Assembly: GCF_000384375.1 (NCBI RefSeq) | Contig: NZ_ARVX01000001.1 | Span: 1,116,001-1,180,000, forward strand | DNA: 64,000 nucleotides | Direction of reading: 5' to 3' | From: Methylotenera versatilis 79 | GTDB lineage: Bacteria; Pseudomonadota; Gammaproteobacteria; Burkholderiales; Methylophilaceae | Part shown: in pieces, positions 45,932 through 48,115 of the stretch | Numbering within the stretch: the first letter of the stretch is position 1 | How the letters are laid out: every line of letters begins with the position of its first letter | Translations under genes and position numbers: made by a program | Notes under the pieces: model-generated | The model's database searches: none | Seen by the model: the letters and a program-made list of their open reading frames with translations, nothing else | What the model was told of the DNA's origin: nothing

Positions 45932-46735
45932 ATGAAAGCAAAACAATATCTATTCTGTACGTTGCTAGCCGCCAGCATTTTTGTTGGGGCTAGCCAGAGT
46001 GCGATTGCAGAACCAAATGCGCAATTATGGCCTGTAATGAAAGAGGCTTTTTTTGAAAAGCGCCCTATGACAGAGGTCACATTTATGAAGATCGATGCAC
46101 CGCGTCGCGCCGAAAGTGGTGCGCAAGTGCCAGTCACTTATACAATTGATAATGCCGCCGCTAATGGTGTGGTGATCAAAAAACTCTATGCTTTTGTGGA
46201 TGCAAATCCGATTCCTTTAACCGCTACTTATCACTTAACCGATGCATTGGGTGACTTTCATTTATCGACACGGATTCGTTTTGAAACAGATGCTTATGTG
46301 CGTTTAGTCGGCGAAACAGCAGATGGTAAATTATACTTAGCCTCGCGCGAGATTCGTGCAGCTGGCGGTTGTGGTGGTACGGTGGAAAACGATGAAGCGG
46401 CAACACGTGCGGCAGCAGGCCGTATCAAAATGAATGTAGAAGTGCCAGCAAAATTTGGGGTTGCAACGCCTGCCACATTTAATATTAAACACGTGATGCG
46501 CACCGGCCTGCAACGCGATTTAGTTTCGCAAGGTTTTGTACCTGCTTTTTACATTAAGAAAACAGAGTTTACTTACAATGGTAAACCTGTGATGACGGTT
46601 GATGTAGGCGTGGGAACGGCGGAAGACCCTTATTTCAAATTTAATTTTGTGCCAAAAGAAGCGGGTAAATTAGAAGTAGTAGCAACTGATAATGAGGGAA
46701 AAAGCTTTACACATTCGGTTGATGTGAAAAGTTAA
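45932..46735 (+). CDS. Quinoprotein-dehydrogenase-associated SoxYZ-like carrier
   Basis: This is an exported 267-residue protein. The signal peptide covers about residues 1-26 (ends AIA). A SoxY-like half (27-150) ends in the carrier motif AGGCGGT with Cys147; a SoxZ-like half (165-267) follows. In thiosulfate oxidation SoxY and SoxZ are separate proteins and the Cys arm carries sulfur. This fused form instead lies near PQQ-dependent methanol/alcohol dehydrogenases in methylotrophs, and its exact role is unsettled. ATG at 45932 has GTGGAG ahead; a GTG at 45905 would add nine residues before the signal peptide. A strong terminator follows. Confidence 0.88.
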   Translation: MKAKQYLFCTLLAASIFVGASQSAIAEPNAQLWPVMKEAFFEKRPMTEVTFMKIDAPRRAESGAQVPVTYTIDNAAANGVVIKKLYAFVDANPIPLTATYHLTDALGDFHLSTRIRFETDAYVRLVGETADGKLYLASREIRAAGGCGGTVENDEAATRAAAGRIKMNVEVPAKFGVATPATFNIKHVMRTGLQRDLVSQGFVPAFYIKKTEFTYNGKPVMTVDVGVGTAEDPYFKFNFVPKEAGKLEVVATDNEGKSFTHSVDVKS

Positions 46736-46876: not shown

Positions 46877-47296
46877 ATGAAAAGCTATCGAAAAGAACTT
46901 TGGTTTAATCCGCCCACACGTGTGGCGTTTATTCGCATTACGGAGCAGATTAATGAATGTTTGCGCGAAAGTGGCGTACGCGAAGGCTTGGTTTTAGTGA
47001 ATGCCATGCATATTACTGCCAGCGTGTTTATTAATGATGATGAACGTGGATTGCATCATGATTACACGCAATGGCTAGAGCGACTTGCGCCGCACGAGCC
47101 AGTCAGCAGTTATCGACATAATGATACTGGCGAAGATAATGCCGATGCACATATGAAGCGCCAGATTATGGGGCGCGAAGTGGTGGTGGCGATTACAGAA
47201 GGCCATTTGGATTTTGGGCCTTGGGAACAGATATTCTATGGTGAGTTTGATGGCAGGCGCAAAAAACGCGTGCTGGTTAAAATCATTGGTGAGTAA
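46877..47296 (+). CDS. YjbQ / UPF0047 family protein
   Basis: This small 139-residue beta-rich protein of the YjbQ family is known for weak thiamin-phosphate-synthase activity in some members; the true role is unclear. Conserved motifs are [34 protein letters not shown] (metal/phosphate-binding His and Asp residues) and [28 protein letters not shown] at 46877 has AAGGAG nine bases ahead. It stands alone between two terminators. Confidence 0.92.
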
Positions 47297-47374
47297 CGCA
47301 GAAAATAATACCAAATAATGTAAATCAAAAAGTTGAGCTAAATATTTGGTTAAGTGACATAAATAACGAGCAAT

Positions 47375-47402
47375 AAAAAATGGAGCAATTGCTCCATTTT
47401 TT
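47375..47402. terminator. Bidirectional terminator between yjbQ-type gene and pqqA
   Basis: A near-perfect palindrome, AAAATGGAGC paired with GCTCCATTTT around AATT, is flanked by A and T runs on both sides. It can therefore terminate the plus-strand gene and the convergent pqqA transcript, whose stop is 17 bases away. Confidence 0.85.
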
Positions 47403-47418
47403 AATAATGAATTAAGGC

Positions 47419-47490
47419 TTATTTATTCATTACGTACATTGTAACTTCAAAGCCAAAACGCATTTCTGTCGCTGCTGGAGTTGTCCACAT
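47419..47490 (-). CDS. pqqA: Coenzyme PQQ precursor peptide PqqA (orphan, 23 aa)
   Basis: This 23-residue reading frame starts at ATG 47490 with AAAAGGAT eight bases ahead. It begins MWTTPAATEMRFGFEVTMY and ends VMNK, closely matching PqqA (MWT-P, then the RxGFEVTMY core). The Glu and Tyr of EVTMY (residues 15 and 19) are the ones PqqE and later enzymes cross-link to build pyrroloquinoline quinone. It is far too short for usual gene-calling cutoffs. No pqqB, C, D or E gene lies nearby, so it is a stand-alone copy. It is followed by a bidirectional terminator. It lies about 700 bases from the quinoprotein-associated SoxYZ carrier, fitting a PQQ-using methylotroph. Confidence 0.93.
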   Translation of the reverse strand: MWTTPAATEMRFGFEVTMYVMNK

Positions 47491-47683
47491 GATAAATATC
47501 CTTTTCATAAAATAATTAAAAATTCAGTATCACAACAAACAATCAAATTAATTTCTTTATTCGTTGCTTGTTTGTATGACTGCATTGTGCGCCTACAGTT
47601 TGCTTAAAGTGCTGCGTTTTGGCATGAATGCCGTATACGTATTTTCATGAGCTTGACATCATTAATCTGTGTTAAAAACTCAA
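47491..47683. promoter_or_regulatory. Upstream region of pqqA
   Basis: This 193-base spacer lies between pqqA and the CBS gene, both on the minus strand. The pqqA promoter should lie here, but I see only a weak TTGTTG -35-like element near 47546-47551 and no good -10. A TTGACA on the plus strand near 47653 has no clear partner. Confidence 0.3.
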
Positions 47684-48115
47684 TCAGCCGCGTATATATT
47701 GCTCTAACTCTTTAATTAAGCGTTGTTGATAGGCGATTGTCTCTTTAACCAAATCGCCCAGCGACAGCATGCCGAGTAACATTTTATCGTGCATCACAGG
47801 TAAGTGGCGGATGCGCTTTTCACTCATCATACTTAACATTGACTCTACTAAATCGTTGGGTTCGCCAGTAATCACCTTTTTCGTCATCACTTCATCTACT
47901 TGTGTGGTTTTGGATGATCGCCCTTTTAAAATGACTTCGCGCGCGTAATCACGTTCTGAAAAAATACCGACCAGTCGGCTATCTTGCATCACGGCTAAAG
48001 CGCCGATTTTATATTCAGCTAAAATTACCAACGCATCAAAGACAGGGCGATTTGGCGCGATGCTAATGATCTCTTTATGTTTTTTATCATTTAATACTTG
48101 TTGTAAAGTTTTCAT
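47684..48115 (-). CDS. CBS-domain pair protein
   Basis: This is a 143-residue protein made of two CBS modules (about residues 10-65 and 76-130) with GALAVMQDSRLVGIFSERDYAREV and IRHLPVMHDKMLLGMLSLGDLVKE signatures. Such stand-alone pairs bind adenine nucleotides and act as energy or redox sensors; the target is unknown. It is divergent from the MarR gene, and the MarR operator lies about 98 bases upstream of its ATG, so it may be a target. Confidence 0.9.
   Translation of the reverse strand: MKTLQQVLNDKKHKEIISIAPNRPVFDALVILAEYKIGALAVMQDSRLVGIFSERDYAREVILKGRSSKTTQVDEVMTKKVITGEPNDLVESMLSMMSEKRIRHLPVMHDKMLLGMLSLGDLVKETIAYQQRLIKELEQYIRG

Follow-up and report, generated by a model that had tools for sequence, protein, structure and literature searches.

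The 23-codon gene at positions 47419-47490 of the window, meaning the whole 64,000-nucleotide stretch of the Methylotenera versatilis 79 genome under analysis, is in our reading a complete extra pqqA unit that is controlled by the same putative activator as the pqqABCDE operon and raises the supply of the PqqA precursor, an interpretation to which we assign a probability of about 0.78. Taken as a single gene it is an expected find, and extra pqqA genes are a known kind of thing since multi-copy pqqA has been published for the Methylophilaceae and for another methylotroph (available parts of PMC4109929 and PMC9851590). The part worth following is the site shared between the copies together with its spread to phages, which opens a testable control circuit for the supply of PQQ, the cofactor of methanol oxidation. 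A short site conserved at almost all pqqA genes examined in the family provides direct bait for a regulator and would explain the dispersed copies as a matter of dose, and a 72-base gene for a cofactor precursor occurs in methylophages, where the annotations examined have passed over it.

A pqqA unit between a CBS-domain gene and yjbQ

The gene lies on the minus strand, reading from 47490 to 47419 as 23 codons plus stop, exactly the coordinates, strand and length given in the initial annotation, and encodes the peptide MWTTPAATEMRFGFEVTMYVMNK. Its assignment as a genuine pqqA is borne out by matches above cut-off to TIGR02107 (NCBIfam PqqA, equivalog; 38.8 bits, E 5.6e-10, cut-off 20) and PF08042 (Pfam PqqA; 38.1 bits, cut-off 21.1) and by an intact Glu-x-x-x-Tyr pair, E15-V-T-M-Y19. 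That the Glu and Tyr of PqqA become the PQQ skeleton is established and is also stated in the accessible portion of PMC12997753. A ribosome-binding site and a terminator had been claimed as well, and both were seen, the latter as a terminator-like structure: AAAAGGA (47499..47505, minus strand) is located 8 nt 5' of the ATG, and a hairpin of 13 pairs followed by a T run (47374..47403, minus strand; fold -16.4 kcal/mol, z -5.9) lies 3' of the gene. A simple consensus terminator scan did not list this hairpin; by eye, similar hairpin-and-T sequences follow most of the pqqA copies displayed. Since it is palindromic, the hairpin may also serve the convergent yjbQ gene. A further in-frame ATG occurs upstream at 47508, for which inspection by eye revealed no counterpart in the orthologues of three relatives (G007, G011, G014).

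Upstream of the gene, a putative 5' untranslated leader (47491..47577, minus strand), its start placed at a CA ~7 nt after the -10 element, is preceded by the -10-like hexamer CACAAT (47584..47589, minus strand), a poor match to TATAAT that lies within GCGCACAATG and marks the presumed promoter. Farther upstream, a 17-bp inverted repeat, CTCATGAAAATACGTAT (47635..47651, minus strand), aligned with its orthologues and proposed as a regulator site, begins 161 nt before the ATG and has an intact left half and a degenerate right half. The unit is bounded by a CBS-domain protein gene (47684..48115, minus strand; profile search and synteny) and by yjbQ (46877..47296, plus strand; TIGR00149 and synteny), the two edges of a site that is empty in relatives. 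The 387-bp gap between them would thus hold a regulator site, a promoter, a leader, the 23-codon gene and a terminator. Being detached and equipped with a promoter-like region and a terminator-like hairpin of its own, the gene can supply more precursor with no increase in enzymes.

Beyond yjbQ, at 45932..46735 on the plus strand, lies a gene for a quinoprotein dehydrogenase-associated SoxYZ-like carrier (TIGR04557, 230.9 bits) that ends 684 nt from pqqA, in agreement with the distance of about 0.7 kb reported in the initial annotation. The functional link that had been drawn from this proximity is not supported. At a threshold of at least 75% identity, SoxYZ is found in 14 of 15 genomes of the genus (G013 is without it) and therefore does not track pqqA: it holds the same place in genomes with and without the gene, and six of the 14 have the CBS gene next to yjbQ with no pqqA. 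We accordingly reject a SoxYZ partnership and judge the carrier to be outside the system.

Three precursor genes and one set of partner genes

The genome is complete and comprises one contig of 2,604,277 bases. A search of all of it for further pqqA genes and for pqqBCDE, which the initial annotation had proposed, yielded two more pqqA and, counted by PqqE, one pqqBCDE. The three copies, all with the identical 23-aa peptide, are the present gene (copy 1, C1:1163422-1163490), one beside mltA-apaG-thiG (copy 2, C1:1017243) and one that heads pqqABCDE and is followed by pqqB, pqqC, pqqD and pqqE (copy 3, C1:2345625). PqqB, PqqC, PqqD and PqqE each score above at least one NCBIfam cut-off, one PqqE-type SPASM match was found, and the pqqBCDE set sits 1.18 Mb from the 47419-47490 gene. 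The designation of this gene as an orphan is thus correct locally and incorrect for the genome, where three copies rule out a lone orphan. Nor is detachment from pqqBCDE unusual, as had been supposed: according to the available text of PMC4109929, Methylophilaceae carry 3-12 pqqA with one pqqBCDE, and a table in it lists three copies for Methylotenera mobilis JLW8. The present genome resembles that description in family, in having several pqqA with a single set of the other genes (three pqqA, one SPASM/PqqE match) and in its copy number of three. Copy numbers come from the consulted part of that paper; the present analysis contributes the locus classes, the empty sites, the promoter layout held in common and the agreement of peptides within genomes described below.

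The extra PqqA precursor would feed the PqqB-E proteins, whose genes lie 1.18 Mb away, and PqqD and PqqE would presumably process all three copies alike, given that the peptide is identical to that of the operon copy. The 47419-47490 gene shares with the operon pqqA (TIGR02107/PF08042) not only this peptide but also the inverted repeat and the -10 spacing; it differs in lacking a pqqB behind it and in its degenerate right repeat half. At the operon, a hairpin-like sequence precedes pqqB, as judged by eye.

The locus in relatives

PqqA matches are present in 37 of 37 family genomes searched (G000-G036), with at least two matches in 35; elsewhere in the order, 5 of 24 genomes of other families had at least one match. 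Many of the copies fall into five locus classes: the pqqABCDE operon (A), mltA-apaG-thiG (B), accC-prmA-[pqqA]-oxyR (C), a place near an SDR and a MORN-repeat gene (D) and, for the present gene, CBS-[pqqA]-yjbQ-SoxYZ (E). Classes were assigned by hand, a few class B members on one shared neighbour only, and several of the flanking-gene names are our reading of their sequences. Classes A, B, C and E each occur in more than one genus, and further copies outside the five classes stand alone. The class C locus, an orphan pqqA between a prmA cluster and oxyR with katA or katG, recurs in many relatives and in other genera; the present genome has no pqqA at that place.

Alignment of the class E locus across the Methylophilaceae, another check proposed at the outset, located a pqqA in the same place in G007, G011, G014 and, in another genus, G023, each with the same peptide as in the present genome (G000), as well as a diverged copy in G012. 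In six further genomes of the genus (G001, G002, G004, G005, G008, G009), the CBS gene and yjbQ are adjacent, 23-217 bp apart, with no pqqA; these sites have no repeat either, the best scores being -6.0 to 2.9 bits. No pqqA was seen at the corresponding place in G003 and G010 (a stretch without the CBS gene) or in G006 (where the contig ends). With six genus genomes that have the flanks and no pqqA, and a diverged copy in G012, the class E locus is dispensable. As to a possible donor of the inserted unit, leader similarity is highest to class A (mean 0.456 versus 0.374-0.392 for the others), all of these values being too low to point to a donor.

An inverted repeat shared by pqqA promoters

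Within-class alignments show, for each of the five locus classes, a 17-bp inverted repeat, CTMATGAWWWTCATKAG, centred ~55 bp before a -10-like box. For scoring we used a symmetric 17-bp matrix that was recomputed for each genome with that genome excluded; it was seeded from the same data and retained same-genus relatives. Compared with 1053 windows drawn at random from these loci, 126 of 129 upstream regions exceeded the 95% level and 120 the 99% level, nine copies falling below the latter. Against 1290 resampled upstream sequences, 124 and 123 of the 129 exceeded the respective levels. In the present genome the 47419-47490 gene has the weakest repeat (13.1 bits, above the 99% control level of 11.3, with the genome itself left out of the matrix), the other two copies scoring 16.8 and 25.1 bits. 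As a slightly higher match of 13.9 bits occurs ~0.3 kb beyond the point where the match to one PQQ dehydrogenase gene ends, a score of 13.1 bits is unremarkable on its own, and the case for this repeat rests on its position and conservation.

When sought 30-54 nt after the repeat, a -10-like hexamer was found at 44-45 nt in 111 of 123 promoters; when sought over 5-54 nt, 80 of 123 had it there, and in shuffled sequence no single place held it in more than 7 of 123. With the 123 promoters anchored on the repeat, a further block, TTT(A/C)A, appears 22-27 nt after it. At the 47419-47490 gene, CACAAT starts 45 nt after the repeat, which is the family spacing. We further built a promoter model, R1, from 62 of the 123 promoters, including that of the 47419-47490 gene, with the other two of this genome represented only through their orthologues. 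Run over the genome, with 150 of 1305 first-look candidates scored, R1 returned at E < 0.01 only the three pqqA promoters (1.2e-10, 2.8e-7 and 4.6e-5); among the same 150, the next matches were the reverse strand of copy 2 (E 0.018) and one at 0.22. A two-mismatch pattern search of the genome gave nine places versus five for a reversed control and recovered one of the three pqqA sites; of the remaining eight, two are intergenic, one of them 262 nt before a 238-aa frame, and six overlap coding frames. No description of the repeat was found among the open-licence PMC papers listed, and the shared repeat and promoter layout at pqqA genes is new as far as these papers show.

Two extensions of this picture were tried and rejected. 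A regulon that includes the PQQ dehydrogenases (three genes above the TIGR03075 cut-off and a fourth, full-length one below it) did not hold, the best repeat scores in four stretches of 4.6-4.7 kb being 13.9, 9.1, 6.6 and 1.7 bits and R1 listing none of them. A leader hairpin common to all copies was too weak when compared with Markov-resampled controls (mean z -1.17, 56% below -1, n=121).

The same repeat and promoter spacing at all three copies suggest shared control. In the mechanism that we propose, a dimeric activator would bind the inverted repeat at about -66 and switch on all copies together, so that copy number would set the precursor dose. The initial annotation had suggested that a separate pqqA lets the cell dose precursor independently of the enzymes. 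That a detached unit can add precursor without enzymes stands; "independently" does not agree with a repeat and spacing that are the same as at the other two copies, and we regard independent dosing as unlikely and as less likely than a unit under a shared activator. Ge et al. (2015, cited in PMC9851590) reportedly observed that multiple pqqA genes respond differently. The corresponding rival reading is a condition-specific copy, regulated unlike that of the operon and serving a particular dehydrogenase or growth state. Such a role would suit a separate unit whose leader is unlike those of the other classes and whose right half-site is degenerate, and published copies with different expression exist, namely the five pqqA of another methylotroph that are expressed very differently (PMC9851590, in the part consulted). 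We nonetheless consider it improbable, given that repeat, spacing and -10 element are the same as at the operon copy, that the peptide is identical, that the neighbouring SoxYZ gene is present without pqqA in other genomes, and that the four full-length PQQ dehydrogenase matches are all distant, the closest being ~138 kb away. Our preferred reading of the pqqA copies is a single co-regulated set that raises the precursor, and not one that includes an independently regulated orphan.

Peptide conservation and selection

Peptides and promoters were compared in a sample of 129 pqqA copies from 32 of the 37 family genomes (G019, G021, G026, G032 and G036 were left out), to which several genomes contributed part of their copies, e.g., G012 six of nine plus one diverged copy. 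The collecting pattern required MW...E-x-T-x-Y, so that these positions are conserved by construction, and two diverged copies fall outside it; one duplicate entry was removed. The conservation of Glu15 and Tyr19 in relatives, named initially as a test of the gene, was found in 130 of 131 family copies, 129 of which had been collected by a pattern requiring both residues. Only six of the 23 peptide positions (3, 4, 6, 7, 21 and 23) vary among the 129 copies although codons differ at many, a pattern beyond what a chance frame would show. The diverged class E orthologue of G012, MRATLAVTEMRFGFEVTIYVMNK, has an altered N-terminus (MRATLAV...) and keeps both Glu and Tyr, with a weak repeat of 9.3 bits. 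The other diverged copy, at a contig end of G014, has Tyr19 replaced by Cys and, if read correctly, could not give PQQ since this core residue is changed.

For classes A, B and C, pairs of copies within the same genome (49 pairs) show 5.49 synonymous and 0.22 non-synonymous codon differences, compared with 5.83 and 2.48 for copies at the same locus across genera (531 pairs). None of 1000 within-class shuffles reached 0.22 non-synonymous differences, a result that is inflated because relatedness among 15 same-genus genomes was ignored. Peptides are identical in 18 of 23 genomes holding at least two of these classes. With non-synonymous differences lower within genomes, peptide variants track the genome more closely than they track the locus. 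Such agreement would be expected both from adaptation of the copies together to PqqD/PqqE and from infrequent gene conversion with synonymous change afterwards.

These comparisons also bear on the notion that the 47419-47490 gene is a relic, a lineage-specific duplicate under loss that contributes nothing. The diverged orthologue in G012, the Tyr19-to-Cys copy elsewhere in G014, the empty sites in six relatives and the degenerate right half-site are what one might expect of such a gene. We hold it to be very improbable in light of the five class E copies from two genera (G000, G007, G011, G014 and G023), which encode an identical peptide, differ on average by 4.1 synonymous and 0 non-synonymous codons, and keep the ribosome site, promoter layout and hairpin.

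The repeat in other methylotrophs and in phages

In other families of the order the repeat was present at 9 of 10 pqqA copies from five genomes, the exception being the copy of G039. A pattern scan of named genomes gave at least 119 stretches, with record titles for 80 of them. On genome contigs, 102 of 122 copies exceeded the 99% level of same-contig windows, among the matches listed. Copies of the EYSD/AYQD type, which where titled stem mostly from Methylophaga, and otherwise from Methylophagaceae, other Gammaproteobacteria and unplaced records, have a repeat with G/C at the symmetric positions 5/13 in 27 of 28 cases, giving the Methylophaga form CTMAGGA...TCCTKAG; the hexamer follows at 43-44 nt in 19 of 27. 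In Methylophilaceae, these positions are T/A in 78 of 123 promoters, T/C in 26, G/A in 18 and T/G in one. The repeat is not a general feature of pqqA, since six copies are without it: two from Methylomonas and one each from Methylococcus, Methylibium, Burkholderia and an unplaced member of the Burkholderiales.

A pattern for MRFGFEVTMY matched at least 120 contigs that are viral according to the IMG/VR classification; it requires exact codons for this segment, so that diverged PqqA are missed in both the viral and the named-genome scans. A start could be read for at least 119 of the viral pqqA, whose 119 neighbourhoods include 112 distinct ones. For copies with enough upstream DNA, and among the matches listed, 86 of 114 exceeded the 95% level and 60 of 114 the 99% level of same-contig windows, and 32 of 114 were above the host-derived 99% level. 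Among the matches listed, the -10-like hexamer lies at the host distance of 43-45 nt in 18 of 85 viral promoters and at 20-22 nt, ~23 nt or roughly two helical turns closer, in 39 of 85.

These spacings help to judge whether the repeat is a regulator site at all or another DNA or RNA element, such as a structural promoter element. Its AT-rich, palindromic sequence would be compatible with such an element, and the binding protein is so far only postulated. We consider this quite unlikely in view of the preferred distances between repeat and -10-like box, the two phage spacings that differ by roughly two helical turns, and the symmetric, two-sided base change between the Methylophaga-type and Methylophilaceae forms, as the half-sites of a dimer would show. 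Phages with pqqA behind the same repeat would tap the same switch as their hosts. Extending the regulator-site reading, we see a slightly better than even chance that beta- and gammaproteobacterial methylotrophs share a switch dedicated, in this genome at least, to pqqA only, in which a dimeric activator acts on CTMATGAWWWTCATKAG, copy number sets the precursor, and the pqqA genes of methylophages, missed in annotation, draw on the switch during infection.

Among annotated phage records, 12 match PqqA, ten covering at least 80% and two, from Acinetobacter phages, being partial. In seven of seven methylophage records examined, intact PqqA genes are not annotated as such: those of P19250A, MEP301, Venkman, MEP401 and MEP402 have no feature at pqqA, and in Melnitz and ctXG6705 a hypothetical protein is annotated there on the other strand. 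The upstream repeat is the best site of the whole stretch in five of the seven, MEP401 and MEP402 being without it. The Melnitz paper (PMC9004378) mentions PQQ in its main text only as a medium component, and "pqq" does not occur in PMC10580990, on phages of the OM43 strain FZCC0133, the stated host of MEP401 and MEP402. Virus-borne pqqA is reported for Lake Baikal virus VP_266 in the available part of PMC7678222, and pqqA is named among virus-encoded genes from reservoir sediments in that of PMC13188868. These cases resemble ours, as far as both excerpts go, in a PqqA away from the pqq operon; the 47419-47490 gene differs in being a host locus.

Leads to a regulator

A NarL-type response regulator and histidine kinase pair at ~1.627 Mb, ~1.8 kb away from the PQQ dehydrogenase gene with the best score, is a candidate, by position only, for the regulator of the pqqA site. 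Among known systems, the available part of PMC12997753 describes AgmR (PedR1, ErbR), which is of the LuxR type and activates the ped cluster and the pqq operon in Pseudomonas. Compared by this description and not by site or homologue, AgmR is similar in activating PQQ synthesis genes; it also activates dehydrogenase genes, which the pqqA site here apparently does not. The ACTU motif of CrbR, a LuxR-family response regulator, is likewise a 17-bp imperfect inverted repeat and is found upstream of co-regulated genes (PMC5715377, accessible text), but differs as described there from the pqqA repeat in sequence, position (-52 to -36) and genes, and may serve only as a lead to the type of regulator. 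One further repeat-like site in this genome, CTAATGAATTTACTTAG (G000:C1:2582797-2582813), lies 168 nt before a gene for a pentapeptide-repeat protein; the ped cluster also contains a pentapeptide protein, PedD (PMC12997753, same portion).
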